Assembly: GCA_030652575.1 (NCBI GenBank)
Contig: JAUSQI010000154.1
Coordinates: forward strand, 1-64,000
DNA from: Stagnimonas sp.
GTDB lineage: Bacteria; Pseudomonadota; Gammaproteobacteria; Nevskiales; Nevskiaceae
Length of the DNA stretch: 64,000 bases
Direction: 5' to 3'
Within the stretch, counting starts at the first letter, position 1. Each line of letters begins with the position of its first letter. Shown piece by piece: positions 27,914-50,268 of the stretch. A program made the translations under genes and the position numbers. A model generated the notes under the pieces. It did no database searches and was not told where the DNA came from. It worked only from the letters and a program-made list of their open reading frames with translations.

Positions 27914-27959
27914 ACGACCATTTTTTTGGAAGTCGTCAACCAAACGTAAAAATGGTCGT
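27914..27959. repeat. 12-bp inverted repeat upstream of the M36 protease
   Basis: Perfect arms ACGACCATTTTT (27914-27925) and AAAAATGGTCGT (27948-27959) enclose a 22-base loop, ending 56 bases before the protease start. It could terminate the cbs-mipA transcript, form a hairpin in the protease leader, or be an operator. The region 27834-28015 is AT-richer than its surroundings and otherwise holds nothing I recognise. Confidence 0.7.
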
Positions 27960-28015
27960 TGGAAAAGATAGTGGTTACGCCGTTTCCGCGCTCACTCTCA
28001 TTCCAGACCTTGCCC

Positions 28016-31000: not shown

Positions 31001-31567
31001 GGACTGGTGGCGGGTGCGCATCTCACCGTGCAGCTGGCAGGCGGTGCGCAAAGCGTCTCTCGTGTGCATCTGAGCACAGCCGCTGGCCCCAACAACCCAG
31101 GGCGCTTCAACGGTATTCGCGCTTTTGAGATCCGCACTTGCGAGGGTAGCTGCACTGATCCGGTGGCAGATTTCCAGACCATCGCCTACACCAGCACTGC
31201 GGATGCCTTCCCGGGTCAAAAGCCGCGCCCGACCCAGCCGCAGCTCAACCTGCGCAGCTTCGAGTTTCCGGCAGTTCGTGCCAGCCATGTGCAGTTGCGC
31301 GTGCTCAGCAGCCAGTGCACGGGCAATACGGACTTCCACGGCGAGCTCGACACAGACCCGCTGAACGCGACCGACTGCATCACTTCCACCGCGGGTGAAA
31401 CCGTACGGGCAACGGATTTTCAGGTGTTCTCGGCCGCCGCCAAGGTTGAAAAGAGCGGCGCGACCGGTGAACCACTGCCTGGCACACCGGATGTCGGTGG
31501 TGCTCTGGGTTTGGCGCTGTTGCTGCCCGGGCTGTTCTGGGGCCTGCGTCGCCGAAACACGCGCTGA
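28016..31567 (+). CDS. Secreted M36 (fungalysin-type) metalloprotease with GlyGly-CTERM-type tail
   Basis: A 1,183-residue zinc protease. A signal peptide ends near GPASA. The N-terminal propeptide (about residues 35-270) has FTP/PepSY-like features. The M36 catalytic part has HEYGH at 634-638 and the third zinc ligand Glu662 in GEGWSD. A carboxypeptidase-regulatory-like Ig fold follows (about 855-960), then a discoidin-like part. The C-terminus GGALGLALLLPGLFWGLRRR is a Gly motif, a helix and an Arg tail, suggesting rhombosortase processing. Paralogous to the protease at 50269 but visibly AT-richer at third positions. The Met at 28016 is chosen for its signal peptide. Confidence 0.9.
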   Translation: MTSDRSFRTFIPLALGIASLLGAGPASAVFLLHDQQNQPQQVDYRSGEKRPAADQLKLISALKADAVWNRFGTVHSLVRHGGYLSSGYEGTPAEAARAWVRDHRQLFRLSPQGVDELELVNEAITPHSEARAVLFRQRFGGLPSAAEGLITVGVVNGKIYYVSSSSVGDQPPPSAVRLSPEQAWLRAAENVNFRMPLSAVLSVTDTLRGRGWQEMRVRGLDWPQRARLGAMALPEGGLRQVYETIVLDNRNGIPTAYTHFIDAENGAVLRRENKVFNQAGGTPQTFTGSLVDGGACAARHDFEVSEGNGSVSVLATAAMPVNDIVINLYFQAANGSTQLVASGDLLTSPELLSYSPTGGVAPGTYQVEICPFDPTVAALPPANYFGVFTAGEGGAVTAGGIPILDANPKWVLNSLSPSLDYSDEDVRLKGCWNKEEGCDYSFANTAARMQWDVLLGVVPTLTTIGNAAITAGSAISPLSPSVPHLPLAPTRDYDFPFNNAWFNSSCSLVNAVGTLLPAGNVNDIDASVVNLFASHNRMHNWAYYLGFTELNYNMQLNNFGLTSVVRGNDPEIGSAQAGAITGGFPLYLGRNNANQIALNDGIPGITNQYLFQPLGGALYAPCADGGFDMSIIGHEYGHAISNRMIGGPDAGISGAQGGAMGEGWSDLLAAEHLAEYDFLPFDQPGNPTALARYVTGNIDSGLRNYSGDGGGPLNYSNIGYDTPGVQVHADSEIWVLTNWQIRQALVEKYQSAFPVEDKKRQKECADGLYGAEACAGNRRWMQIMFDSFLLMPAAPSMLDARDAMLAADVARFGGANQTEMWKAFAERGMGAAAYSNGSDDPTPIPDFSSPLLTTHAQVKFEVYGADGRTALGGARVYVGQFATRSRPIADTDATTVVNETDALSRQQTSNLDDTANFVPGRFDFMVAAPGYGMHRFAAIDLSAGTQTLRFSLPENMAALGRGAVALTSAADAANIALKDMLIDETEDTGAVLGDAGLVAGAHLTVQLAGGAQSVSRVHLSTAAGPNNPGRFNGIRAFEIRTCEGSCTDPVADFQTIAYTSTADAFPGQKPRPTQPQLNLRSFEFPAVRASHVQLRVLSSQCTGNTDFHGELDTDPLNATDCITSTAGETVRATDFQVFSAAAKVEKSGATGEPLPGTPDVGGALGLALLLPGLFWGLRRRNTR

Positions 31568-31678: not shown

Positions 31679-32845
31679 ATGTCCGACTCCACCGCTCTGC
31701 ACTTTGGCACCCGCTGCATCCACAGCGGGCAGTCGCCCGACCCCACCACCGGCGCCATCATGCCGCCAGTGTCGCTGTCTTCCACCTACGTGCAAGCGTC
31801 GCCCGGCGTGCACAAGGGCTATGAGTATTCGCGCAGCCACAATCCCACCCGCTATGCCTACGAGCGCTGCGTGGCGGACCTCGAAGGCGGCAGCAAGGGC
31901 TTCGCGTTTGCCTCGGGCCTTGCCGCCACGGCGACGTTGCTCGACACGTTGCAACCCGGCGCGCATGTCATCGCCAGCGACGATCTCTACGGCGGTTCGT
32001 ATCGCCTGTTCGCGCGCGTTCGGGCGCAATCGGCGGGGCTGGCCTTCAGCTTCGTCGACATGCGCGAGCCGAACAACATCGAGGCCGCCATCACGCCGCA
32101 GACCCAGCTCATCTGGGTCGAGACACCGACCAACCCGATGATGAAGCTGGCCGATCTCGCCGCCATCGGTGCCATCGCCAAGAAGCACAGCATCCCCGCC
32201 TGGGCGGACAACACCTTTGCAACGCCCTATCTGCAACGCCCGCTCGAACACGGCTTCGCGGGCGTGATGCACTCGGGCACCAAGTACATCAGCGGGCATT
32301 CGGATGTGGTCAACGGCCTGCTCATCACCGGCAGCGACGACGCACTGACCGAGAAGATCACCTTCCTGCAGAACGCCATCGGCTCGGTGCTGGGGCCGTT
32401 CGACAGCTACCTGGCGTTGCGTGGGGTCAAGACGCTCGCTCTGCGGATGCAGCGCCACTGCGAAAACGCGATGGCGCTCGCCACTTGGCTCGAAGCGCAT
32501 CCCAGGATCGCCCGCGTGCACTACCCCGGCCTGCCCTCGCACCCGCAACACGCGCTGGCCAAGCAGCAGATGCGAAACGGCTTCGGCGGCATGATCGCCA
32601 TCGAACTGAAGGGCGGGCTGGACGATGCGCGCCGCTTTCTGGAACGCACACAACTGTTCGCGCTGGCGGAATCGCTCGGTGGTGTCGAAAGCCTCATCGA
32701 ACACCCGGCCATCATGACCCACGCCAGCGTGCCTGCGGCGCAGCGGGCGCTTTTGGGCATCAGCGATACGCTGTGCCGATTGTCAGTCGGGGTCGAGGAT
32801 GTAGGTGATTTGCAGCGCGATCTCGCACACGCCTTGGGGAGCTAA
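31679..32845 (+). CDS. Cystathionine gamma-lyase / gamma-synthase (Cys/Met metabolism PLP enzyme)
   Basis: A 388-residue PLP enzyme of the trans-sulfuration family. Key elements: YEYSRSHNPTRYAYE, the cofactor-stacking region ASDDLYGGSYRLF, PLP-Asp in AWADNTF, PLP lysine 202 in SGTKYISGHSDVVNG, and the C-terminal SLGGVESLIEHPA. Lyase and synthase cannot be separated from sequence alone; the nearby cystathionine beta-synthase favours gamma-lyase, giving reverse trans-sulfuration from homocysteine to cysteine. It is convergent with the pentaheme cytochrome gene, sharing four bases at the stops. Confidence 0.9.
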   Translation: MSDSTALHFGTRCIHSGQSPDPTTGAIMPPVSLSSTYVQASPGVHKGYEYSRSHNPTRYAYERCVADLEGGSKGFAFASGLAATATLLDTLQPGAHVIASDDLYGGSYRLFARVRAQSAGLAFSFVDMREPNNIEAAITPQTQLIWVETPTNPMMKLADLAAIGAIAKKHSIPAWADNTFATPYLQRPLEHGFAGVMHSGTKYISGHSDVVNGLLITGSDDALTEKITFLQNAIGSVLGPFDSYLALRGVKTLALRMQRHCENAMALATWLEAHPRIARVHYPGLPSHPQHALAKQQMRNGFGGMIAIELKGGLDDARRFLERTQLFALAESLGGVESLIEHPAIMTHASVPAAQRALLGISDTLCRLSVGVEDVGDLQRDLAHALGS

Positions 32846-34152
32846 CCGGCAGGCAGTGTGCGTGCCACGGCATCGAGTGCGCGTGCGTGCTCTTTCACAT
32901 CGAAGCGATCGATCTTGCGCACTGCCTTGTAATACGACTCGATGGCACGGCGGGCAGCAAGCGGAACCGATGCGCCCTGCAAGTGCAGCGCATCAGAGAT
33001 CACCGTCAGCGCCATCGCACGCTGCTCGCCGCTGAGTGGCGCCTGACGATGAGGACCATCCGTGACCAAGGCACGCAGCAGGCCCCGCAGCTGCGCCGGA
33101 TTCATCGACTCGCCGGCAATCAGCGGTCGCAGCCCGGTACGCAACAGCACAAGCTGCTGTTGCGCGGCGGCGCGAACAGCATCAACCCCCTGCCCCTGCG
33201 CCACATGCAGCCTTCGCTGCCCTTCTAGCCAGGCGAGCGCCTCGGGCGGGGCCATCACGGTGAGCCACAAACCCAGCAGTTGTTGCGGCGCATCGGCAAA
33301 CGGCACGGCACCGGGTTCGGCGCCGGGCATGCGCTCCGGCTGCCAGCGACCTGCGTCCATGCTGTGATGACAGGCGGTGCAGTCGAACTCGGTCCACTCG
33401 GGCATCAGGCCTTTCATGAATCGACCATCGGCCAAGGCTTGCAGATGCAGCTCGGCGGCTTGAGTCTGGCCGGTGATCCAGTCGCGCGCCGGCTGGTAGG
33501 CACCCTTCCGCGCGGCATAGTCGGCATCGCGGTTGTGGTGCGGCGGTTCGAGTGCCGTGAAGGTGTCCAGCTCAAAGACCAGCCTCGGGTGCCCCGCCGC
33601 CATCATGGCGTGGGTGATGGAACGTTGGGCATCACCCTGATGACAGCTCAGGCAAAGTGCAGCGCGGGTTTCGCGCTGCCAGGTCGGTTTCATGCCCAGG
33701 GCCACTTTCTGTTCAAGCGTGATGCCGGGGCGTGCGTGTTCGGCCAGCCAGCGTTCGCTGCCACCGTGGCAGTTCTCGCAGCCGATCCCGTCGCTCAGCT
33801 GATAACGCGCACCGCGTGCGGAGGCGATCGGCGCATCGCTGTGGCAGCTGAGGCAGGCAGGGGCGGTCTCTGCATTTATTCCGAGCGCCTGGCCAATTTT
33901 GCGGCTCGCCGGGCTGTAAAGGGTTTGGTAGGCGCGGGCATGCGAATCCTGCCGCTGCCAGACAAAGTATTCGTCCTGACGGATGGGATGCTCACCCAGC
34001 GGCTTCGTCGCACCGTGGCATAAACTGCTGGCGCAACTGGCAACGCCCTGATGCAGATCTTGCGCAGTATTCGGCATCGCAGCGATGGACAAGGCAAGCG
34101 CTACAATGACTTTGCATACAGCTTGGCTGAGTGACCATGTCGGATATTTCAA
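32842..34152 (-). CDS. Exported pentaheme c-type cytochrome
   Basis: A periplasmic multiheme protein of about 436 residues. Four CxxCH heme sites are seen (CLSCH, CENCH, CLSCH, CTACH), plus an N-terminal CASSLCH, a Cx4CH variant found at this place in cytochrome c554-like proteins. The C-terminal half is helical and heme-free. I place the start at the TTG at 34152, because GAGG precedes it and it yields a signal peptide (KYPTWSLSQAVCKVIVALAL ...). Upstream codons carry no signal. Divergent from the electron-conduit operon and probably its periplasmic carrier or terminal reductase. A specific substrate cannot be named. Confidence 0.83.
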   Translation of the reverse strand: MKYPTWSLSQAVCKVIVALALSIAAMPNTAQDLHQGVASCASSLCHGATKPLGEHPIRQDEYFVWQRQDSHARAYQTLYSPASRKIGQALGINAETAPACLSCHSDAPIASARGARYQLSDGIGCENCHGGSERWLAEHARPGITLEQKVALGMKPTWQRETRAALCLSCHQGDAQRSITHAMMAAGHPRLVFELDTFTALEPPHHNRDADYAARKGAYQPARDWITGQTQAAELHLQALADGRFMKGLMPEWTEFDCTACHHSMDAGRWQPERMPGAEPGAVPFADAPQQLLGLWLTVMAPPEALAWLEGQRRLHVAQGQGVDAVRAAAQQQLVLLRTGLRPLIAGESMNPAQLRGLLRALVTDGPHRQAPLSGEQRAMALTVISDALHLQGASVPLAARRAIESYYKAVRKIDRFDVKEHARALDAVARTLPAG

Positions 34153-34299
34153 GAACCACCTCACATTAGCAGTAAGTTTTAAGTTGCCCTTAAGCCCCAC
34201 TGAACATAGGCTTACGGGACTGCAGGACGCAAGTTGCACGTGAATCACGACAAAGGTCGCGATCACACGGAGCTAAAACTATTTACAGGGAGCAGGGCC
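34153..34299. promoter_or_regulatory. Divergent control region of the multiheme cluster
   Basis: 147 bases between the pentaheme gene and the FAD/cNMP gene, AT-richer than its surroundings, must carry both promoters. A short inverted repeat TTAAG-TTGCC-CTTAA (34179-34193) is present. I find no FNR-type box (TTGAT-N4-ATCAA) and no correctly spaced CRP site. AGGGAG at 34287-34292 is the ribosome site of the downstream gene. Confidence 0.45.
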
Positions 34300-36708
34300 T
34301 TGAGCAGCGTGTACGCACTTGCCATCGTTGGTTCCGGCCCCGCAGGCCTTGCTGCCGCCGCACGCGCCGCCGAACTGGGCTTGAGCCATGTGCTGATCGA
34401 GGCCGAGCCTCATCTCTCGCACACCATTCACCGCTATCAAAAGGGCAAACACGTGATGGCGGAGCCGGCAGCCTTGCCGCTGCGCGCATCAGTGCCGTTC
34501 GCCGCCGGGCAGCGCGAGGTGATTCTCACAGCCTGGGATCGCAGTGCGGCCAAGCTCAAGATCCATATCAGGCACCGGGCCGAGGTCATTGCCATTACCG
34601 GCGCACAGGGTCGGTTCACGCTGAAGCTGTCGAACGGCGAAGCAATCAATGCCGAACACGTGGTGCTCGCCATCGGCCTGCAAGGTAATCCCCGCAAGCT
34701 GGGCTGCGAAGGCGAGGACAGCGGGCTGGTGCAATACCAGCTGGATGACCCGGCCGAATATCGCAACGAGACCATCGTCATCGTCGGTGCCGGCGATGCG
34801 GCCATCGAGAACGCGCTGGCACTGAGCACGCAGAACAGGGTCACCCTCGTCAACCGCCGCGATGATTTCGATCGCGCCCGCGAGGGCAACCGTGATGCCG
34901 TTCTGAAGGCCATCGAGCAGGGTCGCCTGCGTGTGGTCTACAACGCCGGGGTCGCCAGCGTGGCGATGACCGCCGCACAGCGCGGCGTCATCACCCTCAG
35001 CACACCGCAGGGCGCTGCACCCATCGACTGCCAGCGCATCATCGCGCGACTGGGCGCCACACCGCCGCGTGCCTTCGTGGAGTCCTGCGGCATTGTCTTC
35101 CCCAGCAAGGACCCCAACGCCGTACCGGCGGTGAGCGACCGCTACGAAAGCAATGTGCCAGGCCTGTACGTGATCGGCGCGCTGGCAGGCTTCCCGCTCA
35201 TCAAGCAGGCGATGAACCAGGGTTGGGAGGTGGTCGAGTTCATCGTCGGCCGCAGCCCCGAGCCGGCCGACGCGCCGCTGCTGGCGAGCAAGTTCGAGCG
35301 CCTGCCGGGCTACCGGTCCGTGCCTGCCACCATCGCGCAGATCCAATCCGGCATCCCCGTTCTGGCCCCGCTGACGCCCTTGCAGCTGAGAGAGTTTCTG
35401 CTCGACTCCGCGCTGCGCACGCCACGCGCGGGCGAGGTGATCTTCAGTCGCAACGATTACAGCGACAGCTTCTTTTCCATCCTCGCCGGCGACGTGTTCA
35501 TCGCACCCAACCCCGATGACGTGAGCGAGCTGATCCCGCTCGCTGCCGGGCAGTTCTTTGGCGAGATGAGCCTGATTTCCGGCCGCCGCCGCAGCGCCAC
35601 CGTGCTGGCCGGTGAAGGCTGCGTGCTCATAGAGACCCCGCGCCGCTCGATGAACAAGCTCATCGCCAGCGTCGCCGCCGTCAAGCGCGTGCTGGACGAA
35701 ACCTTTCTCACCCGCGCCATCCAGTCCAAGCTCGCACCGGGGCTCTCCGCCGACGAGCTGCAAGAGGTGGTTGCCAGTGCCAGCGTGCAGCGCTTCAAGG
35801 CCGGTGAAGTGCTGTTCAAGGCCGGGGATGTCGGCGATGGCCTGCACCTGATCCGCAAGGGCTCGGTAACCGTCGCACAACAGATCGCCGGCAAGGAAAT
35901 GGTGCTGGCCTACGTGCCCGCCGGGCAATACGTCGGCGAGATGGCCCTGCTCACCGGTGCGGCGCGCAGTGCGACGGTGAAAGCCGCCATCGCCACCGAA
36001 ACCATCAAGCTCGAAGTCGCCCCGTTCCTGGGCCTGCTCGACAAGCATCCGGCGCTGCGCGACCAGCTGGGCAACACGCTCAAGTCACGCGCGGCCGCCA
36101 ATGCCAGCGCGCCGCAGAGCGATAGCCAGCAGCACGGCATCGTGCAGTTCCTCATGCAGCAGGGTCTGGGCGAGGCCACCGATGTGCTGCTGATCGACGA
36201 AGGCCTGTGCGTCGGTTGTGACCACTGCGAAAAAGCCTGCGCCGATACCCACGGCGGCATCTCGCGGCTGGATCGCGACGCCGGTGCCAGCTTCGCTCAG
36301 CTGCACGTGCCGACCAGCTGCCGCCACTGCGAACACCCGCACTGCATGAAGGACTGCCCGCCGGATGCGATCCGCCGCGCACCCAATGGCGAGGTGTTCA
36401 TCACCGATGCCTGCATCGGCTGCGGCAACTGCGAAAAGAACTGCCCCTACGGCGTGATCCAGATGGGCACGGTCAGCGAAAAGCCACCCAGCCTGATGAG
36501 CTGGCTGCTGTTCGGTGGCACCGAACCCGGCGCCCGTGCTGAAAAAGCGCTGGTCAAAGCCAAGCAGCAGAGCGGCAAGCAGGCGGTGAAATGCGACATG
36601 TGCAAGGACCTCTCCGGCGGCCCCGCCTGCGTGCGCGCCTGCCCCACGGGGGCTGCGATTCGGGTGTCCCCCGAGCAGTTCATTCAAATCACCCAAGGCG
36701 CCGACTAG
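34300..36708 (+). CDS. FAD reductase / double cyclic-nucleotide-binding / four-[4Fe-4S] fusion protein
   Basis: An 802-residue cytoplasmic redox protein. Residues 1-330 are a thioredoxin-reductase-like FAD/NAD(P) unit with GSGPAG (11-16) and a second nucleotide site IVGAGDAAIENA (about 159), but no CxxC disulfide centre. Two cNMP-binding domains follow (about 367-470, GEMSLISGRRRSATV; about 483-590, GEMALLTGAARSATV), both keeping the phosphate-contacting Arg. Residues about 636-783 hold four [4Fe-4S] motifs like DmsB/NrfC (CVGCDHC, CRHC, CIGCGNC, CDMC and partners). The TTG start has AGGGAG seven bases upstream. Likely feeds electrons from NAD(P)H to the membrane protein encoded next. Inference from domains. 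Confidence 0.9.
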   Translation: MSSVYALAIVGSGPAGLAAAARAAELGLSHVLIEAEPHLSHTIHRYQKGKHVMAEPAALPLRASVPFAAGQREVILTAWDRSAAKLKIHIRHRAEVIAITGAQGRFTLKLSNGEAINAEHVVLAIGLQGNPRKLGCEGEDSGLVQYQLDDPAEYRNETIVIVGAGDAAIENALALSTQNRVTLVNRRDDFDRAREGNRDAVLKAIEQGRLRVVYNAGVASVAMTAAQRGVITLSTPQGAAPIDCQRIIARLGATPPRAFVESCGIVFPSKDPNAVPAVSDRYESNVPGLYVIGALAGFPLIKQAMNQGWEVVEFIVGRSPEPADAPLLASKFERLPGYRSVPATIAQIQSGIPVLAPLTPLQLREFLLDSALRTPRAGEVIFSRNDYSDSFFSILAGDVFIAPNPDDVSELIPLAAGQFFGEMSLISGRRRSATVLAGEGCVLIETPRRSMNKLIASVAAVKRVLDETFLTRAIQSKLAPGLSADELQEVVASASVQRFKAGEVLFKAGDVGDGLHLIRKGSVTVAQQIAGKEMVLAYVPAGQYVGEMALLTGAARSATVKAAIATETIKLEVAPFLGLLDKHPALRDQLGNTLKSRAAANASAPQSDSQQHGIVQFLMQQGLGEATDVLLIDEGLCVGCDHCEKACADTHGGISRLDRDAGASFAQLHVPTSCRHCEHPHCMKDCPPDAIRRAPNGEVFITDACIGCGNCEKNCPYGVIQMGTVSEKPPSLMSWLLFGGTEPGARAEKALVKAKQQSGKQAVKCDMCKDLSGGPACVRACPTGAAIRVSPEQFIQITQGAD

Positions 36709-36726
36709 CGCCCTGCACCGCCAGCC

Positions 36727-37695
36727 ATGAGCCAGCCCACCGCCCACCGCAAGCCTTCCCGCGAAAGCGCGCACACCGGCTTTATGCGCCATCGCGGTTT
36801 TCGCTGGGCCAAGTTCGCCCTGCTGCTGTGCATTGCCTGCATCGCCGCCTACGTCTGGCACGAGCCGCTCGATGGCCCCAGCGGCGGTAGCTGGCTGGGC
36901 TACACCCTGGGCGGCATTGCCCTAGCACTCGTGGTGTTTCTGGCCTGGCTCGGGGTGCGCAAGCGGCGCTATGGCTCCAGCCTCGGCACGCTCAAGGGTT
37001 GGACCTCCGCGCATGTCTATCTGGGCCTGGCGCTGGTGCTGATTGCCACACTGCACTCGGGCTTTCAGTTCGGCCTCAACATCCACACCCTGGCCTATAC
37101 GCTGATGGTGTTGGTGGTGGTGTCCGGCATCTACGGCATCGTGGTCTACGCCAAGTTGCCGCAGGAGATCGCCCGTCTGCGCACGGGCTCGACACGCGAT
37201 GCCTGGATCGAAGAACTGCTGGATCTCAACGACGAGGCGCTCAAACTCGCCGAGCCGATGGGACCAGACGTGCATCGCAAGGTGGTGGGTTCTATCGAGA
37301 AGGTGCAGATCGGCGGCGGTCTGCGGCGCCAGCTCTATGGCTCAAAAAAGCAGAAACGCAGTCTGGAGCAGTTCAGCGATGCCCTGCAGCAGCGCCTGAA
37401 AGCCTTGATCGACAGTGCGCCGCCAGAAACCTTCAACCCCAGTGCAACCCAGCAGAGCACGGTGATGTTCATGGCCGGGCAGCTGGGCAGCGGCGACAAA
37501 TCCGCACTGGATTTGCAGCGCCTGCAACAACTGCTCGACGTGATTGGGCGCCGCAACGCACTGGTCACGCGCATCAACCGCGACATTGCCCTGCACGCGC
37601 GCTTGCAGGTGTGGTTGCTGCTGCATGTGCCGCTGACCTTTGCGCTGATTGCAGCCCTGATCGCGCACATCGTCTCCGTGTTTTTCTACTGGTGA
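36727..37695 (+). CDS. Membrane protein with two His-x13-His pairs, probable b-type cytochrome
   Basis: A 322-residue inner-membrane protein with about five helices (near residues 29-45, 56-77, 94-115, 119-142 and 295-320). His96/His110 in helix 3 and His300/His314 in the last helix are each 14 positions apart, the spacing of bis-His b-heme ligands on one face of a helix; His120 is a further candidate. The long loop (about 145-290) is charged and cytoplasmic. It is not a standard cytochrome b561 or NarI sequence. Gene order suggests it takes electrons from the Fe-S fusion protein and passes them to the FHA-decaheme protein. Heme content is inferred. Confidence 0.75.
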   Translation: MSQPTAHRKPSRESAHTGFMRHRGFRWAKFALLLCIACIAAYVWHEPLDGPSGGSWLGYTLGGIALALVVFLAWLGVRKRRYGSSLGTLKGWTSAHVYLGLALVLIATLHSGFQFGLNIHTLAYTLMVLVVVSGIYGIVVYAKLPQEIARLRTGSTRDAWIEELLDLNDEALKLAEPMGPDVHRKVVGSIEKVQIGGGLRRQLYGSKKQKRSLEQFSDALQQRLKALIDSAPPETFNPSATQQSTVMFMAGQLGSGDKSALDLQRLQQLLDVIGRRNALVTRINRDIALHARLQVWLLLHVPLTFALIAALIAHIVSVFFYW

Positions 37696-37702
37696 GCCGG
37701 CA

Positions 37703-39430
37703 ATGAAAGTCCTGCTGCGCACCATCGAATCCGCCAACGCCCCGACCGTCGAAAAACGGCTGGATCTCACCGTGCTCAAGATCGGCCGCGGCAGCGATCA
37801 GGACTTGGTGCTGGGCGATCAACGGCTGGCGCTGGCGCACGCCGAGCTCGTCCCGCACAAGGGTCTTCTCGGTCCTGCAATCCGGCTCGAAGCCAAGGCG
37901 CGCATGGGCGTCAAGGTCAACGGCACCCCGCAGGTGAGCGATACGCTCAAGCCCGGAGACGTGCTCGATTTCGGCCGCTACTCGCTCACCGTCGGCAAGC
38001 CGGTCGAAGGCTGTGATCTGGTGCTGACGTTGCAGCAGCGCTTGGCGGCGCATGAAGAACGCAGCGCCCGCAAGGCCGCGTTCAAGACCACGCTGGCCGA
38101 CACCGGCTGGTCGCGCCGCCGCCTGTCATGGCTGCTGTTCGGGTTGTTCGCGCTGGTGACACTGGGCTGGCCACTGCTGCGTTACTTTCAGCAGCCGCCG
38201 GTGCCGGTTGCCGCCGAGCGCACGACCGTGCCGAGCCGCGAACTCAAGGCCGACATCCTCTGGAACTCCGGGCCTCTTTCCAACGCCCACCAGATGCTCA
38301 ACGCTGACTGCGGCGTCTGCCACCAGCAGCCCTTCGTGCAGGTGCAGGATGCGAGCTGCAAGGGCTGCCACGCCGACCTCGGCGACCACGCCATGACCAG
38401 CGTGGTCGCGCAGCAGCATCCCTTCGCCGAACAGCGCTGCACCGACTGCCACCGCGAGCACAACGGCGCGCATGGGCTGATCCCCACCGCCAATCAGGCC
38501 TGCACGGTCTGCCACGCCGAACCCGCCGATCTACCCGGCAAGCCGGGCCTGCCGACCAAGGATTTCAGCACCGCGCACCCGGAGTTCATGCTCAAGCTCA
38601 CCCGCAAGGCCGCCTTGGATGCGAAAGAACCCTTCGTCTGGGTCGAAGCACGTCAGGGCACGCCAGAGGCGAAGTTCGAGGACACCGGCCTCAAGTTCCC
38701 CCACGATCTGCATCTCGATACGAAGGGCATCGATGCGCCCGAAGGCAAGCGCGTGCTGGAGTGCGCGGGCTGCCACACGCCCACAGCCGACCGCGCAAGC
38801 TTCCTGCCGGTGACGATGGAGGCGCATTGCTCGGACTGCCACCGCCTTGACTTCGACCCGCAGCACCCGGATCGCCTCCTGCCGCACGGCGAGCCGGAGG
38901 CCGTCGTGCAGTCGGTGCGCGACCATTTCGCCCGCATCGCACTCGCCGGTGGCGTGATGACCGCCGGGGCGCCCGCCGAGGTGCGCGAGCGTCGCCGCCC
39001 CGGCGAAACACTCGCGCCCAACCGCGCCAGGGCCGCACTCGCCTGGGCCGATGGCGAGGCGCAGAAAACGCTCACCGATGTGTTCGAGAAGCGCAGCTGC
39101 TACCTCTGCCATGCCGTCAGCCCGACCAGCGATGTGCCCCGCCGTTGGCAGATCGCAGCCGTCGCGCCCACGACGCAGCCCGCCTTCACCACGCTCACCT
39201 TCCCGCATGGCGCGCACGCCACCGAGAACTGTGCAAGCTGCCACGCCAGCGCCACCTCGAAGCACGCCGAAGACGTGCTGCTGCCAGACATCAAAAGCTG
39301 CCGCGACTGCCACGGCGACACGGGTGCTATGACCGAGACCGCCTCGCCCTGCCAGTCCTGCCACGTCTACCACCTTGAGGCGAGTGCCCTGCCCAGCCTG
39401 GCAAGGCCCGCTGCGAAGAAGGCCCCGTGA
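37703..39430 (+). CDS. FHA-like domain / transmembrane / decaheme cytochrome
   Basis: A 575-residue bitopic protein. Residues 1-110 form an FHA-like beta sandwich with IGRG (27-30), but the usual SxxH motif reads LALAH (His46), so canonical phosphothreonine binding is doubtful. One transmembrane helix at about 141-160 places the rest in the periplasm. There I count ten CxxCH sites (CGVCH, CKGCH, CTDCH, CTVCH, CAGCH, CSDCH, CYLCH, CASCH, CRDCH, CQSCH). The cytoplasmic FHA could dock a phosphorylated or structural partner and gate electron flow. Its stop overlaps the next GTG start. Confidence 0.9.
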   Translation: MKVLLRTIESANAPTVEKRLDLTVLKIGRGSDQDLVLGDQRLALAHAELVPHKGLLGPAIRLEAKARMGVKVNGTPQVSDTLKPGDVLDFGRYSLTVGKPVEGCDLVLTLQQRLAAHEERSARKAAFKTTLADTGWSRRRLSWLLFGLFALVTLGWPLLRYFQQPPVPVAAERTTVPSRELKADILWNSGPLSNAHQMLNADCGVCHQQPFVQVQDASCKGCHADLGDHAMTSVVAQQHPFAEQRCTDCHREHNGAHGLIPTANQACTVCHAEPADLPGKPGLPTKDFSTAHPEFMLKLTRKAALDAKEPFVWVEARQGTPEAKFEDTGLKFPHDLHLDTKGIDAPEGKRVLECAGCHTPTADRASFLPVTMEAHCSDCHRLDFDPQHPDRLLPHGEPEAVVQSVRDHFARIALAGGVMTAGAPAEVRERRRPGETLAPNRARAALAWADGEAQKTLTDVFEKRSCYLCHAVSPTSDVPRRWQIAAVAPTTQPAFTTLTFPHGAHATENCASCHASATSKHAEDVLLPDIKSCRDCHGDTGAMTETASPCQSCHVYHLEASALPSLARPAAKKAP

Positions 39431-41382
39431 ACCATTCGCTGCGCCCGCTGATGTTGGTCTTTGCACTGCTCGCGGTGCAGGGCTGCGGTGGCGGCGGCAT
39501 CGCGGCCACGGCCTGCACCGGCAGCTGCACCGAGCCACTGCCGCCGCGTCTCGAAATCGGCGATGTCGAGCGCGTCATCTCGCAGGCGGTGGCCGAAGCG
39601 CAGGCGCGCAATGCCCCCGCCACCGTCGCGGTGGTGGATCGCGTCGGCAATGTGCTGGGCGTGTTCCGCATGAGCGGCTCGGATACCAGCATCACCATCA
39701 GCAGCGAGCGTGGCGTCACGGGCGGGCTGGAGGGCATCAGTGTGATTCCGGACTCGCTCACCGCCATCAGCAAGGCCATCACTGGTGCGTATCTCTCCAC
39801 CGAAGGCAATGCCTTCACCAGCCGCACGGCGAGCCAGATCGTGCAGCAGTTCTTCAACCCCGGCGAAACCAGCCAGCCCAGTGGGCCGCTGTTCGGCGTG
39901 CAGTTTTCCTCGCTCGCCTGTTCCGATCTCGTGCAGCGCCTCGGCAGCACGCGGCCCAGCGTCGGGCCGCAGCGCAGCCCGCTGGGTCTGTCGGCCGATC
40001 CGGGTGGCTTCCCGCTCTACCGCAATGGCGTGCCGATTGGCGGCGTGGGGGTGATTGCCGACTCGACCTACGGCGCTGATCTGAACGTTCGTGATACCGA
40101 TGTCGATCTCGACGAGCTGATTGCGCTTGCCGCCCAGCGGGGCTTCGAGCCACCCGATGATCGCCGCGCGGATCGCATCACCGTCGATGGCAAGACCCTG
40201 CGCTACAGCGATGCCAGCGCGGGCCAGCTGATGAGCGCGGTTGCAGCACCCGCCTTCGCCAGTCTCGATGGCAGCGCAGGCCAGCGGCTGGCCGTGCGCG
40301 GCTACACGGCAACGGCAGACAGCAGCCTGAAGGCAGGCACGCGCTTCGGTCTGGCCGAGTCCGGCATCCGCCCCGCCAGCCATGCCGCACTCGCCGCACT
40401 CGATGGCTTCGTGCTGGTCGATGCGCTCGATGCCGAACGCTTCGCACCGAAGCCTGGCAGCGATGGCGCGAGCCTGGGCAGCACCGCGCCGCTGGCCGCA
40501 GCGGAGGTGCAGACGGTGCTCGAAGAAGCGCTCAAGGTCGCCAACCGCGCCCGCGCGCAGATCCGCAGGCCACTGTCGTCGCAGGCGCGCGTGACCATCG
40601 CCGTCACCGATACGCATGGCGCGGTGCTGGGTGTGGTGCGCACCCGCGATGCGCCGCTGTTCGGCACCGATGTGGCGCTGCAAAAAGCACGCAGCGTGGC
40701 CTTCTTCAGCAACCCCGCCGCCGCCGCCGATCTCGCCGCCACGCCCGATACGCAGTATCTCGCCGCAGGGGGGACCGCGAGCATTGCCGACTATCTGCCG
40801 GCCATCCGCAGCTTCCTGAATCAACCCACTGCCCTGGCCGACGGCGCCTATGCCTACGGTAACCGCAGCCTCGGCAATGTGGCGCGTCCGTACTTTCCCG
40901 ATGGCATCCCGGATGCCGAGCAGGGCCCTCTCTCCAAACCCATCGCGGCCTGGAGCATTTTCTCGACCGGCCTGCAGCTCGACCTCGCGAACTCCGCCAT
41001 CATCAAGCACGCCGTGTTCGTGCTGGGCGGCGGCAGCGATGTAAGCGCCGGCAGTTGCACCGAGTTGCCCAACCCGCCGGGTGCCGCGATGTCGCGGCTG
41101 GCGAACGGTTTGCAGATTTTTGCCGGTGGTGTGCCGATCTATCGCGGCAACCAGCTCGTGGGCGCCATCGGCATCTCGGGCGACGGCATCGACCAGGACG
41201 ACATGGTCGCCTTCCTCGGCTTGCACAATGCCGGCGTGCGTTTGGGCAATGCGATCAGCAATGCACCGATGGCGATGCGTGCCGACACCATCGAACACAA
41301 CGGCAGCCGCCTGCGCTATGCGCAGTGCCCGCAGGCACCCTTCATCGACAGCGACGAGCAGCGGCCATGCGAGGGCAAATGA
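39427..41382 (+). CDS. Two-domain GlcG/HbpS-like lipoprotein
   Basis: A 651-residue lipoprotein (lipobox VQGC, Cys20, followed by a Gly run). It contains two GlcG/HbpS-like heme-binding folds, at about residues 45-230 (helix VERVISQAVAEAQARN, then VAVVDRVGNVLGVFRMSG, ending GGFPLYRNGVPIGGVGVIAD) and about 355-600 (TIAVTDTHGAVLGVVRT, ending GGVPIYRGNQLVGAIGISGD). HbpS-type proteins bind heme or cobalamin-like ligands, though many GlcG proteins are uncharacterised. Starts with GTG in a 4-base overlap with the decaheme gene, so it is translationally coupled and likely a surface or periplasmic part of the same system. Confidence 0.83.
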   Translation: MNHSLRPLMLVFALLAVQGCGGGGIAATACTGSCTEPLPPRLEIGDVERVISQAVAEAQARNAPATVAVVDRVGNVLGVFRMSGSDTSITISSERGVTGGLEGISVIPDSLTAISKAITGAYLSTEGNAFTSRTASQIVQQFFNPGETSQPSGPLFGVQFSSLACSDLVQRLGSTRPSVGPQRSPLGLSADPGGFPLYRNGVPIGGVGVIADSTYGADLNVRDTDVDLDELIALAAQRGFEPPDDRRADRITVDGKTLRYSDASAGQLMSAVAAPAFASLDGSAGQRLAVRGYTATADSSLKAGTRFGLAESGIRPASHAALAALDGFVLVDALDAERFAPKPGSDGASLGSTAPLAAAEVQTVLEEALKVANRARAQIRRPLSSQARVTIAVTDTHGAVLGVVRTRDAPLFGTDVALQKARSVAFFSNPAAAADLAATPDTQYLAAGGTASIADYLPAIRSFLNQPTALADGAYAYGNRSLGNVARPYFPDGIPDAEQGPLSKPIAAWSIFSTGLQLDLANSAIIKHAVFVLGGGSDVSAGSCTELPNPPGAAMSRLANGLQIFAGGVPIYRGNQLVGAIGISGDGIDQDDMVAFLGLHNAGVRLGNAISNAPMAMRADTIEHNGSRLRYAQCPQAPFIDSDEQRPCEGK

Positions 41383-43214
41383 AGCCCGCTGCCGCACTGG
41401 CTGCGCTGCTGCTGAGCACGACGGTGCAGGCGCTGACCGTCGATACCGCCGACGATCGCTTCTGGGTCGAACGCCAGCAGGGGCCGACCGCCGATGGCGC
41501 CCTCGATGTGACTGGCGAGCCTGCGCCCACCGAGCGCCGCCGCCCCGACCGTGAGGTGCCCGTACCGCTGCCGCCCGCAGATGCGCCCGTGGATCTCAAC
41601 GCGCGTTCGGGCCTCTCGCCCGTGCGTCCCATCGAAAACTGGCAGCCCACGCAGGGCGCGCCGGTACCCGACCGCTGGCGGCTGATCAGCAATCTCGGCG
41701 TGATGCGCGATCAGATTCTCAACCCCTACGAGCAGAACACGCTCAAGGGCGACAAGCCGATTCGCGGGCATGACGAGTTCCTGGTGGTGCTCGCCATCTC
41801 CGACACGGTGTTCGAGCCGCGCAGCATCCCCACGCCGGTCGCACCGCAAGCGCCGGATCGCGCGGGTGCGAACGGCATCTTCGGCGGCGACACCCAGAAC
41901 GCCTTTCTGCAAAGCGTGATCCTGAGCCTGATCTACCTGAAGGGCGACACCACTTTTCGCCCGCCGGACATCGAGTTCCACATCACGCCGGTGTTCAACT
42001 TCAACCACGCGCATGTGCAGGAGAACCGCGCGTTGCGCGTCGACCCGCGCGAGTCCACCACGCGGCGCGAGACCTTCATCGGCATGCAGGAGCTGTTCGC
42101 GGACTACCACATCCGCAACGTCAGCGACCGTTACGACTTCGACTCGGTGCGCTTCGGCATCCAGCCCATCTCTCTGGATTTCCGCGGCTTCCTGTTCCAG
42201 GACCTGCCGATTTCCGCCCGTTTGTTCGGCACCCGTGACAACAACCGCTGGCAATACAACCTGCTGTGGGCGCGCAGGCTGGAGAAAGACACCAACAGCG
42301 GCCTCAACGCCATCAACCGCACGCCGCGTGAGGATGATCTTTTCGCCGCCAATCTCTACCGGCAGGACTGGCCGGTGCTGGGCTTCACCTCGCAGGCGCT
42401 CATTGCGCACAACCGCAACCGCGAAGGTGGCGATTTCTTCTTCGACCGCAACGGCTTCCTGGCGCGCCCCGCCTCGCTCGGCACCGAGCGCGGGCGCAAC
42501 TATCAGGTGACCTATCTCGGCGCGAATGGCGATGGTCACTTCGGCCGCGACAACCTCACCGTCTCCGGCTATCTCGCGGTCGGGCACGAGACGCGCGGCG
42601 TGTTCAAGGACGCCTCGCGCGACATCCTCGCCGGCTTTGCCGCCGCCGAATGGTCGCGCGACTACGACTGGATTCGCGCGCGCGTCTCGGCACTCTGGGC
42701 GAGCGGCGACGACGACCCGTACGACAGCACCGCCAATGGCTTCGATGCGGTGTTCGAGAACCCGATCTTCGCCGGGGCCGACACCAGCTACTGGATTCGC
42801 CAGGGCGTGCCGCTGATCGGCGGCGGCGGCGTGACGCTCTCGACCCGCAACGGCGTGCTCAACAATCTGCGCACCAGCAAGGAACATGGGCAGAGCAACT
42901 TCGCCAATCCCGGCACGATGCTGCTGGGCGTCGGTGGCGACTTCGACCTCACGCCGGAACTCAGGCTCTCCACCAACTTCAACCACCTCTGGTTTGCCGA
43001 CACCACCGTGGTCGAGGTGGCGCGCAATCAGGGCGGCATCTCGAAAAGCATTGGCTGGGACCTGTCCACGGCACTGATCTGGCGGCCGTTCCAGAACCAG
43101 AACGCGGTGCTCAGGCTCTCGTATGCGCAGCTGTTGCCCGGTGCGGGCTTCGAGGCGCTGTTCCCGGATGAAGACGCCTATTCGCTGCTGGCGAATGTGA
43201 CGTTTACCTATTGA
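41379..43214 (+). CDS. Outer-membrane beta-barrel of the cytochrome cluster
   Basis: A 611-residue exported protein: signal peptide (MKPAAALAALLLSTTVQA), a Pro-rich N-terminal stretch, then alternating amphipathic strands (VRFGIQPISLDFRGFLFQDL, QYNLLWARRLEKDTNSG, LSTALIWRPFQNQNAVLRLS), ending in the aromatic C-terminus TFTY, an outer-membrane assembly signal. I recognise no named porin family. Its place between heme proteins suggests the barrel of a porin-cytochrome complex, functionally like MtrB or PioB but without visible sequence likeness. GAGGG and an ATGA overlap with the preceding gene fix the start. Confidence 0.78.
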   Translation: MKPAAALAALLLSTTVQALTVDTADDRFWVERQQGPTADGALDVTGEPAPTERRRPDREVPVPLPPADAPVDLNARSGLSPVRPIENWQPTQGAPVPDRWRLISNLGVMRDQILNPYEQNTLKGDKPIRGHDEFLVVLAISDTVFEPRSIPTPVAPQAPDRAGANGIFGGDTQNAFLQSVILSLIYLKGDTTFRPPDIEFHITPVFNFNHAHVQENRALRVDPRESTTRRETFIGMQELFADYHIRNVSDRYDFDSVRFGIQPISLDFRGFLFQDLPISARLFGTRDNNRWQYNLLWARRLEKDTNSGLNAINRTPREDDLFAANLYRQDWPVLGFTSQALIAHNRNREGGDFFFDRNGFLARPASLGTERGRNYQVTYLGANGDGHFGRDNLTVSGYLAVGHETRGVFKDASRDILAGFAAAEWSRDYDWIRARVSALWASGDDDPYDSTANGFDAVFENPIFAGADTSYWIRQGVPLIGGGGVTLSTRNGVLNNLRTSKEHGQSNFANPGTMLLGVGGDFDLTPELRLSTNFNHLWFADTTVVEVARNQGGISKSIGWDLSTALIWRPFQNQNAVLRLSYAQLLPGAGFEALFPDEDAYSLLANVTFTY

Positions 43215-43224
43215 GCCTGCGGCC

Positions 43225-46200
43225 ATGAACTCACTCTCTCTCCGCATATTCGCCATCGTCCTGATGGGCTGTGCGCCCTTCGTGCAGGCCAGCGAGGGCG
43301 GCAAGGCGGCAGTGCGCAGCTACCACGCCACGCCCGCCGCACCCGTGAGCCAGTCCACCGCCGATGCCAAGGCCAAGTCCGCAGGCTGCACCAGCTGCCA
43401 CACCGACACCGACCAGCTCTCGATGCACAGCAACCCCGGCGTTGTGCTGGGCTGCACCGATTGCCACGGTGGCGACTCGAAGATCGCGCTGCCGCAAGGC
43501 AGCACACGACCAGAGCTGGCATACACGCAGGCGATGGACAACGCCCATGTCCTCCCACTCTGGCCCGCCTCGTGGAAGGGCAGCGGCAACCCCAAGTCCA
43601 ACTTCACGCAGATCAACCGCGAATCGCCAGAGTTCATCCGCTTTGTGAACCCCGGCGACTACCGCGTGGCGGACCTGGCCTGCGGCGCCTGCCACCAGCC
43701 GGTGATCGAAGCCAGCCGCCGCAGCCTGATGAGCACGGGCGCGATGTTCTGGGAGGGTGCGAGTTACAACAACGGCATCCTGCCGATGAAGCGCAGCGTG
43801 CTGGGCGAGAGCTATGCACGGGCGAGCCAGCCGGTGGCCTTCCCCGACAACACCATGCTGCCGCTGAAGAGCGAGCTGCTCGACCGCATCGAAGACCAGA
43901 CCGGCCCGAAGCCGGAGGCTGCACTCACCTATCTGCCCGCCACCATCAGCAACCCGGTGGCGGTGGACGAGAACATGCAGAAGAAGGGCATCATCCAGAC
44001 GCTCTATCCCCTGCCCGCCTGGGAGGTCACACCGCCCGGCGATGTGTTCCGCGTGTTCGAGCGGGGCGGCCGCAACATCAACTCGATCTTCCCGGAGACC
44101 GGCCTGCCGAATTCGCTGGGCCTGATCCAGCGACTCGAAGAGCCGGGCCGCCCGGACCTGAAGCAATCCAATCGCGGCCCCGGCACCGGCAACCGCATCG
44201 CGGTGCCGGTGCTCAATCTGCACAAGACGCGCCTCAACGATCCCTTCCTGTGGTTTCTCGGCACCAATGACCAGCCGGGTGATTACCGCAGCTCCGGTTG
44301 CACCGCCTGCCATGTGGTCTATGCCAACGACCGCGAGCCGAAGCATTCCGGGCCGTATGCGAAGTTCGGTCACGGCGGCACGACGCAGACGAAAGACCCG
44401 ACCATCCCGCGCAACGAGCCGGGCCACCCGCTGCAACATGCCTTCACGCGCGCCATCCCCACCGCGCAGTGCATGACCTGCCATATGCACCAGCCGAACA
44501 TGTTCATGAACTCCATGCTCGGCTACACCATGTGGGACTACGAGGCCGATGCGCCGCGCATGTGGCCGGAAAAACAGAAGTACCCGACCGACGCCGAGAT
44601 TCGCAGCATCAACGAGCGCAACCCCGAAGAAGCGGCGACGCGCGGCCTCTGGGGCGACCTCGATTTTCTCTCGAAGGTCTGGGACAAGAACCCGGAGATG
44701 AAGGACACCCAGTTCGCCGACTACCACGGCCACGGCTGGAACTTCCGTGCCGTCTACAAGCGCGACAAAAAGGGCAATCTGCTCGACGCCGAGGGTGCGA
44801 AGGTCGCCGACGACGACCCACAGAAGTTCAAGAAGTCGGTGCATCTGTCGAGCATCCATGTCGACAAGGGCATGCAGTGCGTCGACTGCCACTTCTCGCA
44901 GGACATGCACGGCAACGGCCATATCGCGGGTGAGGTCGCACAGGCCATCGAGATCGAATGCCAAGACTGCCACGGCACGGTGGATCGCTATCCCTCGCTG
45001 AAAACCAGCGGCCCTGCCGCACCGCCCGGCGGCACCGACATGAGCAACAAGCGTGTGCAGGATGGTCGGCTGCGCTTTGAATGGATCGGCGGCAAGCTCT
45101 GGCAGCGCAGCAGCGTCACGCCGGGCATGGAGTGGGAAATCCATCTGGTGAAGAACTCGGTCACGCCCGGCAATGCGCACTACAACGAGAAGGCCGCACG
45201 CGCCAAGCTGATGGCACGCGACACCACCAACTTCAGCTACGGCGGCGATGTGAAGCCCGCAGATCGCGCGCACCAGGACGAGGAGATCATGTGCGTCACC
45301 TGCCACAGCTCCTGGACCACGAGCTGCTTCGGCTGCCATCTGCCCATCGAGGCGAACTGGAAGACCGATCGCAAACACTTCGAGGGCGGCGAGACACGCA
45401 ACTACGCCACCTACAACCCGCAGGTGGCGCGCGATGATTTCTTCATGCTCGGCAAGCATGGCGAGGTGAAGGGCAATCGCATCGCCCCCATCCGCTCGTC
45501 CTCGGCGCTGGTGCTGTCGTCCACCAACACCAATCGCGAGAAGATCTACATCCAGCAGCCGCCGGTGTCCTCTGGCGGCTTCTCCAGCCAGGCCTTTGCA
45601 CCGCACTACCCGCACACCGAACGCACCACCGAAACCAAGACCTGTTCGGATTGCCACCTCTCGGCTGCCAATGACAACAACGCCTGGATGGCCTCGCTGC
45701 TGGGCCAGGGCACCAACTTCGTCAACTTCATCGGCTACAACGCCTGGGCCGGTGGCAGTGAGGGTGTGGCGGCGGTGCAAGTGACGGAATGGAGCGAACC
45801 GCAGGCGGTGATCGGCAGCTATCTGCACCGTTACGCCTACCCGGACTGGTATGCGGCGCACGAGGCGCGCAAGCGCACGCTCGCCACCGCGCATGAAAAC
45901 GGCAGCGGCGAGCCGGTGCGCTGCCTGCAACTGCGTGGCGAGTATCTGTATGCCGCCGAAGGCAGCAGAGGCATGCAGGCCTACGACGCGGCGAGCATCG
46001 CCAACAAGGGCTTCAGCCAGCGGCTCATCACAGCACCCTTCTCGCCGCTGGGTCACGACACGCGCATCCCGTCGAAAGACGCGCGCTGTGTGGTGCTGCC
46101 CACCAACCAGCCGATCAATCCGCTGCGCAATGCCGATGCCGCCCTACGCGAGAAGAATCAGGAGCAGGCCATGCACCCGCTCTACCACTACGCGCTGATT

Positions 46201-47043
46201 GCCGATGCGGTGGAAGGCCTGATCCTCGTCAACGTCGATACCCTGCAAGACGGCGAGCCGCGCAACAACAAGCTGCGCCGCGCGCTCACCTGGAACGCCG
46301 ACGACGTGCTGAAAGGCGCGCGCCATCTCGCCATCGCCGGCACGCGCGTCTACGTCATCGCCGATGCGGGACTGGTGGTGCTTGATCTCGCCGAGCCGCT
46401 GAAACCGAAGCTGATCGGCATCACGCCGATGAGCGATGCGCGCAGCGTCGCGGTGCAGTTTCGCTACGCCTTCGTTACCAGCGCGCGCGGGCTGGAAGTG
46501 TTCGACATCACGGTCCCCGCCCAGCCAACGCCCAAAGCACTGCTGCCGATGGCCGATGCGCGGCGCGTCTATGTCGCTCGCACCTACGCCTATGTGGCAG
46601 CGGGCGCGGAAGGCTTGGTGGTGGTCGATGTGCAGAACCCCGAAGCGCCCAGCGTGCTCACCCGCACCACGGCCGACGGCCAATTGAAGGGCGCGAGCGA
46701 TGTGGTGGTCGGCTCCACCAACGCCAGCCTGTTCGCCTACGTCGCGGATGCGAGCGGCCTGCATGTGCTGCAACTCACCGCGCCCGACTCGCAGCCGAAG
46801 TTCTACGGCTTCTCGCCCGAACCGAAGCCGCAGTGGATTGCGCACTGGCCCAGCAAGGCACCGCTGCTGGCTTTGAGCAAAGGGCTCGACCGAGACCGTG
46901 CTGTCGATGAAACCGGGAACCAGATCGCAGTTTTCGGCCGAATCGGTGCACGCCCCTTCAACCAGCGCGAGATGGAAGGGTTATTTTTGGACGTCGATGG
47001 CAAACCCTGGTTTGTCAGCGACGAGGTGAAGGCAAAGCAGTAG
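43225..47043 (+). CDS. Large decaheme cytochrome with LVIVD beta-propeller
   Basis: A 1,272-residue exported protein. Signal peptide to about residue 22. Ten CxxCH sites lie between residue 55 and about 810 (CTSCH, CTDCH, CGACH, CTACH, CMTCH, CVDCH, CQDCH, CVTCH, CFGCH, CSDCH), with long heme-free spacers. Residues about 880-1200 carry repeats such as GLVVLDLAEPLKPKLIG, GLEVFDITVPAQPTPKAL and GLVVVDVQNPEAPSVLTR, i.e. LVIVD repeats forming a propeller, often a surface adhesion or interaction module. Probably the outermost redox component, periplasmic or threaded by the adjacent barrel. Final acceptor or donor unknown. Confidence 0.9.
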   Translation: MNSLSLRIFAIVLMGCAPFVQASEGGKAAVRSYHATPAAPVSQSTADAKAKSAGCTSCHTDTDQLSMHSNPGVVLGCTDCHGGDSKIALPQGSTRPELAYTQAMDNAHVLPLWPASWKGSGNPKSNFTQINRESPEFIRFVNPGDYRVADLACGACHQPVIEASRRSLMSTGAMFWEGASYNNGILPMKRSVLGESYARASQPVAFPDNTMLPLKSELLDRIEDQTGPKPEAALTYLPATISNPVAVDENMQKKGIIQTLYPLPAWEVTPPGDVFRVFERGGRNINSIFPETGLPNSLGLIQRLEEPGRPDLKQSNRGPGTGNRIAVPVLNLHKTRLNDPFLWFLGTNDQPGDYRSSGCTACHVVYANDREPKHSGPYAKFGHGGTTQTKDPTIPRNEPGHPLQHAFTRAIPTAQCMTCHMHQPNMFMNSMLGYTMWDYEADAPRMWPEKQKYPTDAEIRSINERNPEEAATRGLWGDLDFLSKVWDKNPEMKDTQFADYHGHGWNFRAVYKRDKKGNLLDAEGAKVADDDPQKFKKSVHLSSIHVDKGMQCVDCHFSQDMHGNGHIAGEVAQAIEIECQDCHGTVDRYPSLKTSGPAAPPGGTDMSNKRVQDGRLRFEWIGGKLWQRSSVTPGMEWEIHLVKNSVTPGNAHYNEKAARAKLMARDTTNFSYGGDVKPADRAHQDEEIMCVTCHSSWTTSCFGCHLPIEANWKTDRKHFEGGETRNYATYNPQVARDDFFMLGKHGEVKGNRIAPIRSSSALVLSSTNTNREKIYIQQPPVSSGGFSSQAFAPHYPHTERTTETKTCSDCHLSAANDNNAWMASLLGQGTNFVNFIGYNAWAGGSEGVAAVQVTEWSEPQAVIGSYLHRYAYPDWYAAHEARKRTLATAHENGSGEPVRCLQLRGEYLYAAEGSRGMQAYDAASIANKGFSQRLITAPFSPLGHDTRIPSKDARCVVLPTNQPINPLRNADAALREKNQEQAMHPLYHYALIADAVEGLILVNVDTLQDGEPRNNKLRRALTWNADDVLKGARHLAIAGTRVYVIADAGLVVLDLAEPLKPKLIGITPMSDARSVAVQFRYAFVTSARGLEVFDITVPAQPTPKALLPMADARRVYVARTYAYVAAGAEGLVVVDVQNPEAPSVLTRTTADGQLKGASDVVVGSTNASLFAYVADASGLHVLQLTAPDSQPKFYGFSPEPKPQWIAHWPSKAPLLALSKGLDRDRAVDETGNQIAVFGRIGARPFNQREMEGLFLDVDGKPWFVSDEVKAKQ

Positions 47044-50077: not shown

Positions 50078-50268
50078 TTCACAAGACGGCGTCTTGGCCG
50101 CACAAATGTGGCGGTTGATGAAACTTTCAGGTCACCAGAAAACAGAGTGCCGCGTTTGGAGATCGGCACGCTGATTGCTTGGCGTGCTCAATCCGATTCC
50201 TGCGATGGACCGCTTGGGAGTCTCTTAGTCACCATCGACGCTCACGCGCCGGTATTCCAGGCCATCGC

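Follow-up and report, generated by a model that had tools for sequence, protein, structure and literature searches.

A predicted flavin reductase with tandem cyclic-nucleotide-binding and 4x[4Fe-4S] domains lies in a PCC4-like cytochrome cluster and co-occurs with class III adenylate cyclases

The window, by which we mean the whole 64,000-nucleotide stretch of Stagnimonas sp. DNA analyzed here (contig JAUSQI010000154.1), encodes a protein, termed C0, that joins an FAD/NAD(P) reductase, two cyclic-nucleotide-binding (CNB) domains, and four [4Fe-4S] motifs in one polypeptide. C0 and its neighbors occupy the following positions:

32842..34266, minus strand: C7, tetrahaem cytochrome c554-like protein (4 CXXCH), divergent from C0
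34300..36708, plus strand: C0, FAD/NAD(P) oxidoreductase–CNB–CNB–4x[4Fe-4S] protein, about 802 aa
34315..35268, plus strand: TrxR/YpdA-type FAD and NAD(P) module of C0, without CxxC (Pfam; Foldseek best match YpdA/Bdr; profile match 7a7b)
35374..35733, plus strand: CNB domain 1 of C0 (Pfam cNMP_binding and profile matches)
35554..35604, plus strand: phosphate-binding cassette 1 of C0, FFGEMSLISGRRRSATV (conserved G, E, R)
35734..36099, plus strand: CNB domain 2 of C0 (Pfam cNMP_binding and profile matches)
35932..35979, plus strand: phosphate-binding cassette 2 of C0, VGEMALLTGAARSATV (conserved G, E, R)
36169..36681, plus strand: 16-Cys 4x[4Fe-4S] ferredoxin-type domain of C0, HycB/HydN/DmsB type (Pfam, alignment, profile matches)
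36727..37695, plus strand: C4, five-helix inner-membrane protein predicted to be a di-haem cytochrome b, carrying SGxxG and two WX3HX13H motifs
37703..39430, plus strand: C1, decahaem c-type cytochrome (10 CXXCH) with N-terminal FHA domain and one transmembrane helix
39427..41382, plus strand: C2, lipoprotein (lipobox) with HbpS-like repeats (Pfam, neighborhood)
41367..43214, plus strand: C3, outer-membrane beta-barrel-like protein with signal peptide and C-terminal VTFTY (conserved position)
43225..47043, plus strand: C5, decahaem c-type cytochrome (10 CXXCH) with LVIVD repeats

The C0 frame is open from TTG34234 to 36708 on the plus strand. Translation probably begins at TTG34300 or GTG34309, and position 34300, chosen in a first-pass annotation made from the sequence alone, is likely right because homologs are about 800 aa long. 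The domain composition proposed in that annotation was borne out by alignment and by the Pfam search it had called for, which returned Pyr_redox_2/3 at residues 28–330 (numbered from TTG34234), cNMP_binding twice (E 2e-33), and Fer4 families, including Fer4_11/PF13247, at 690–807. It had also listed two GxGxxG dinucleotide sites; the first stands (GSGPAG) and the second does not, being GAGDAA and therefore strictly GxGxxA. A possible NADP selector, the second arginine following this second Rossmann motif, occurs in the window's C0 and is missing from many alphaproteobacterial homologs, so that the preference for NADH or NADPH may vary. The 16 cysteines fall into four ferredoxin-type groups, in order CxxCxxCxxxC, CxxCx4CxxxC, CxxCxxCxxxC, and CxxCx8CxxxC, which is the DmsB/HydN pattern, and the C-terminal domain that carries them resembles HycB3 of CO2 reductase and formate hydrogenlyase subunit 2. 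An AlphaFold model of C0 has a mean pLDDT of 77, lowest in the Fe-S part, where the cofactors are missing from the model.

In that model the flavin module has a fold like those of YpdA (Bdr) and TrxR-type ferredoxin-NADP+ reductases, which differ from C0 in being stand-alone, soluble proteins without fused Fe-S or CNB parts. YpdA/Bdr and TrxR are also the best whole-domain matches, as would be expected if C0 were an ordinary relative of thioredoxin or bacillithiol disulfide reductases with accidental extra domains. We regard this explanation as highly improbable: the redox-active CxxC of thioredoxin reductase is absent from the sequence and the alignment, in agreement with the first reading; C0 scores far below the family cut-offs (125.5 versus 339.9 bits for YpdA and 74.2 versus 343.45 bits for TrxR); and its architecture and cytochrome neighbors are conserved across the family. 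AegA and YgfT likewise combine a HydN-type ferredoxin domain and an NADPH flavoprotein in one chain, but in the opposite order, with a GltD-type flavin module and without CNB domains, and C0 is far below the cut-off of their model (63.5 versus 1003 bits). We know of no AegA or YgfT inside a cytochrome conduit cluster.

A scan of GTDB species genomes for the C0 family gave at least 593 pattern matches and at least 583 confirmed relatives, among which 80 loci were fetched, resulting in 81 aligned proteins together with that of the window. The fetched homologs, mostly from gamma-, beta-, and alphaproteobacteria, are 53–69% identical over their full length and their loci are colinear; with the number of relatives, this establishes C0 as a real, widespread family rather than a chance open reading frame. 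In an even draw of the phylum C0 was present in 15 of 398 genomes. Named carriers are Solimonas, Dokdonella, Tahibacter, and Sphingobium, with Sphingobium herbicidovorans (WP_231568103.1) a cultured carrier on a complete replicon. All 16 Fe-S cysteines are invariant in 81/81 aligned proteins and cysteines elsewhere vary; equally invariant are the Gly, Glu, and Arg (GE..R) of both cassettes. The same cassette residues and 16 cysteines are kept in 16 further homologs, most of them about 47–53% identical. The four cysteine groups and two phosphate-binding cassettes described initially are confirmed.

Several members of the family deserve separate mention. In four alphaproteobacterial homologs (G445, G398, G531, and G499) and their relatives the alignment of the N-terminal flavin part is poor or broken into two segments, which hints that there is an insertion or divergence near model positions 95–275. 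N-terminal extensions in L049, L059, and L084 were considered as additional domains and rejected; they are mutually alike but Arg/Gly/Pro-rich, and most likely represent an alternate-frame reading through a high-GC neighboring gene. One genome (G050) has two C0 copies (L105/L120 and L109/L122), the second with a cyclase frame beside it and without a detectable C4 neighbor. The metagenome-assembled records L029, L053, L068, L070, L072, and L075 carry the name Klebsiella pneumoniae or Bordetella parapertussis and look like misnamed environmental bacteria.

Both CNB domains keep the nucleotide-contacting Gly-Glu and Arg at canonical spacing, as in domains that bind cAMP or cGMP; a lack of such contacts had been named beforehand as grounds for rejecting cyclic-nucleotide gating. 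The tandem is nearer to PKG and PKA regulatory subunits than to CRP, the alignment matches their cassettes, and the nine residues from Glu to Arg reproduce the PKA spacing. C0 differs from PKA, PKG, and CRP in that its CNB domains are fused to redox modules and lack a kinase-inhibitor or HTH part. Of the two kinds of ligand first suggested, cAMP-type nucleotides agree with the cassettes, with the class III cyclase association, and with an alphaproteobacterial phosphodiesterase homolog (both described later); c-di-GMP is not supported, the cassettes being of the type that binds cAMP or cGMP and the enzymes that accompany C0 being class III cyclases, although a CNB variant for c-di-GMP is conceivable. 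The CNB domains of C0 likely bind cAMP or cGMP in vivo. Against cAMP control of C0 is the fact that not every CNB domain with a well-formed cassette is gated by a ligand. No DNA-binding domain was found in C0, so a ligand would act on the enzyme, in line with the earlier proposal that no transcription factor intervenes. The mycobacterial Pat acetyltransferase (CNB-GNAT), an enzyme controlled by cAMP through a fused CNB domain, provides a precedent for such non-transcriptional control, although it is a different enzyme and has a single CNB domain.

Clustering of open reading frames across the 81 loci identified C4, C1, C2, C3, C5, and C7 as the recurring neighbors, with the order C0-C4-C1 in most gamma- and alphaproteobacterial loci and C2-C3-C5-C7-C0 in many betaproteobacterial loci. 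C4 adjoins C0 in nearly all carriers, including 14 of the 15 newly found loci of the phylum draw, and in one locus (L098, genome G083) the two are fused in a single 1120-codon frame, which upholds the direct link to a cytochrome chain that had been proposed. A similar 1125-codon frame is seen in L097 (G202). The two WX3HX13H motifs and the SGxxG of C4 are kept in 69/70 and 68/70 homologs, and a model with a pLDDT of 86 has five membrane helices, the WX3HX13H motifs lying in helices 3 and 5 and SGxxG in helix 4; Foldseek and VIA-align on this model gave only generic helical-bundle matches (TorS and PilJ sensors). Ten CXXCH motifs are present in 48/51 C1 homologs and four in 21/21 C7 homologs. 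C3 has no Pfam match, and its assignment follows its signal peptide, barrel-like C-terminus, and conserved position.

This arrangement resembles PCC4, described in the main text of PMC5566968 (2017) as a candidate porin–cytochrome cluster for extracellular electron transfer. According to that text, the inner-membrane protein of PCC3 and PCC4 has five transmembrane helices, two WX3HX13H motifs, and SGxxG, a PF13247 Fe-S gene lies upstream of the membrane-protein gene in PCC4 Subgroup II, and these two genes are annotated as one open reading frame in Oceanospirillum beijerinckii. C4 has these helices and motifs, C0 with its PF13247 match lies upstream of C4, the C0-C4 fusion of L098 parallels the Oceanospirillum case, and multihaem cytochromes accompany C3, a candidate porin (barrel-like, without a Pfam match). 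The haem counts are 4, 10, and 10 in the C0 cluster versus 4, 5, and 10 in PCC4, and we therefore call the cluster PCC4-like, on the basis of the described features, rather than PCC4.

We are confident that C0 is the redox entry module of this cytochrome cluster. Electrons would pass from NAD(P)H to FAD and on to the four [4Fe-4S] clusters, all within cytoplasmic C0, from there to the two b-haems of C4, then to decahaem C1 and tetrahaem C7, and finally through the barrel C3 with decahaem C5 to an acceptor outside the cytoplasm. This outward direction is weakly favored because electrons passing from NAD(P)H to an acceptor outside the cytoplasm run downhill and the named carriers look like aerobic heterotrophs. 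Alternatively, the conduit could run inward: a donor outside the cell, for instance Fe(II), would feed C4, C0 would produce NAD(P)H or sense the quinone state, and cAMP would tune the process. We consider inward flow unlikely, as to our knowledge Solimonas, Dokdonella, Tahibacter, and Sphingobium are not iron oxidizers and Fe(II) can reduce NAD(P)+ only by energized reverse transfer; on its side are the TrxR-type flavoproteins without CxxC, which include ferredoxin:NADP+ reductases, among the closest folds to C0, and the role of PCC4 in electron uptake by Fe(II) oxidizers proposed in PMC5566968.

The gene for C0 tracks class III adenylate cyclases, which were found in 49/49 carrier genomes checked. 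In the phylum draw a cyclase is present in 15/15 C0 carriers versus 246/383 other genomes (Fisher p 0.0015), and in one alphaproteobacterial family (f46, probably Sphingomonadaceae given the same gene order in Sphingobium herbicidovorans) in 40/40 carriers versus 8/80 non-carriers (p 3e-24). A gyrB tree of 116 of the f46 genomes contained 19 independent pairs differing in C0, about 17 of which were concordant for the cyclase and 0 discordant (p ~1.5e-5). A genome-size artifact was ruled out, as the association holds in each genome-size class and a control gene, flagellin, is flat (29/40 carriers versus 54/80 non-carriers). The genes are often linked: within f46 a cyclase lies no more than 40 kb from C0 in 21/40 carriers (expected 2.0), and in 9/49 of the named set (expected 1.3) the distance is about 8 kb or less, with seven of these cyclases upstream on the same strand. 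When f46 genomes with such a linked cyclase (40 kb or less from C0) were excluded, the association persisted (18/18 versus 7/77; 11 pairs, p ~0.002), which reduces pure linkage as a cause but does not remove it.

These data bear on a further alternative, in which the two CNB domains have a structural role or provide a docking site for C4 or another subunit and the cyclases co-occur because they may serve a separate CRP-type regulator of the cluster or may travel with C0 as an island. The window's genome encodes other CNB proteins, and half of the f46 carriers have the cyclase within 40 kb; both points speak for this explanation. We nevertheless judge it improbable: a mere scaffold would not be expected to hold Gly-Glu-Arg invariant in its two cassettes throughout alpha-, beta-, and gammaproteobacteria, and the unlinked subset partly answers the island argument.

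Where readable, the neighboring cyclases keep the FSD..GFT and DK..GD motifs, including the adenine-selecting lysine; the closest solved structure to the one in L057 is CyaB, and in the genome of L064 no class III cyclase besides the linked one was found. Several linked loci have the order CHASE2 cyclase–TPR–FecR–C0, and in L051, L057, L063, L064, and L082 the upstream module comprises a CHASE2 cyclase, a TPR/Slam-like outer-membrane protein, and a FecR-domain protein. The products of these FecR and TPR genes may be envelope sensors that act on the cyclase. Neither a cyclase nor a phosphodiesterase was found inside the window, which counts against cAMP control; class III cyclases of its genome, one of them CHASE2-type, are on other contigs.

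In f46-type loci, and also in Sphingobium herbicidovorans, a gene for a 282-aa metallophosphoesterase follows C0-C4-C1 in operon order, and in the f46 family a CHASE2 cyclase is also part of the cluster. The nearest solved relatives of the metallophosphoesterase are Rv0805/Icc and related phosphohydrolases; its NCBIfam matches, to SpdA (2',3'-cyclic nucleotide) and CpdA (3',5'-cAMP), are both below cut-off, and it is most like a 2',3'-cyclic nucleotide enzyme. Among the gamma- and betaproteobacterial loci searched, none was seen to carry it. The f46-type loci would thus hold writer, reader, and, plausibly, eraser together.

Taken with the domain order, these observations lead us to favor, with a probability of about 0.55, the reading that C0 serves a PCC4-like trans-envelope conduit as its NAD(P)H:[4Fe-4S] entry module, acting as an NAD(P)H:cytochrome-b oxidoreductase, and is under allosteric control by cAMP. 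In this scheme cAMP from a class III, often CHASE2, cyclase would bind the PKA-like tandem. As the CNB pair lies between the flavin and Fe-S modules, the simplest mechanism is that binding alters their spacing and so sets electron exchange between the two halves, and we lean toward ligand binding controlling electron transfer in C0. In alphaproteobacteria the CpdA/Rv0805-like phosphodiesterase beside the genes would end the signal. That the conduit has its own circuit of cyclase, phosphodiesterase, and C0, through which cAMP quickly switches electron export or uptake without transcription, is a more tentative proposal, for which we put the chances slightly below even.

PCC4 as a candidate conduit, CNB domains, and cyclases were already known; the association between the C0 gene and class III adenylate cyclases is new here and suggests that cAMP may directly control how electrons from metabolism enter a cytochrome chain that leads outside the cell. 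What is understood about the regulation of extracellular electron transfer mostly concerns gene expression, and we know of no NAD(P)H link for the PCC4-like candidate conduit. If correct, our reading would mean that a second messenger directs reducing power quickly and without intermediaries, and would add a redox enzyme to the transcription factors, channels, and acetyltransferases among bacterial cAMP receptors; C0 also gives an experimental handle on PCC4-like clusters. We found no description of a C0-type fusion as a cAMP receptor, or of the cyclase association, in open-access full texts. The main text of PMC5566968 makes no mention of cyclic nucleotides, CNB domains, a cyclase, or a phosphodiesterase, and the domains of the fusion may already appear in its Supplementary Figure 4.

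Other genes lie beside the cluster. In the window it is flanked by two long, similar M36 (fungalysin-type) metallopeptidase-like genes (27959-31567 and 50179-53919), both ending in GGALGL..LLLP..F.G.RRR anchors, with the Pfam basis being the first gene only. C5 is followed by a short DUF4331 protein (47077-47763; 228 aa versus 421 model positions), which may be a trimmed version or part of the cluster, and by a TPR-like lipoprotein (48396-49742). In Sphingobium herbicidovorans (L132) the conduit has beside it genes for a ShlB/FhaC transporter and for a hypothetical protein of very large size (15267-16946 and 36406-42487), raising the question of two-partner secretion, and ShlB-like genes recur in L128-L130.
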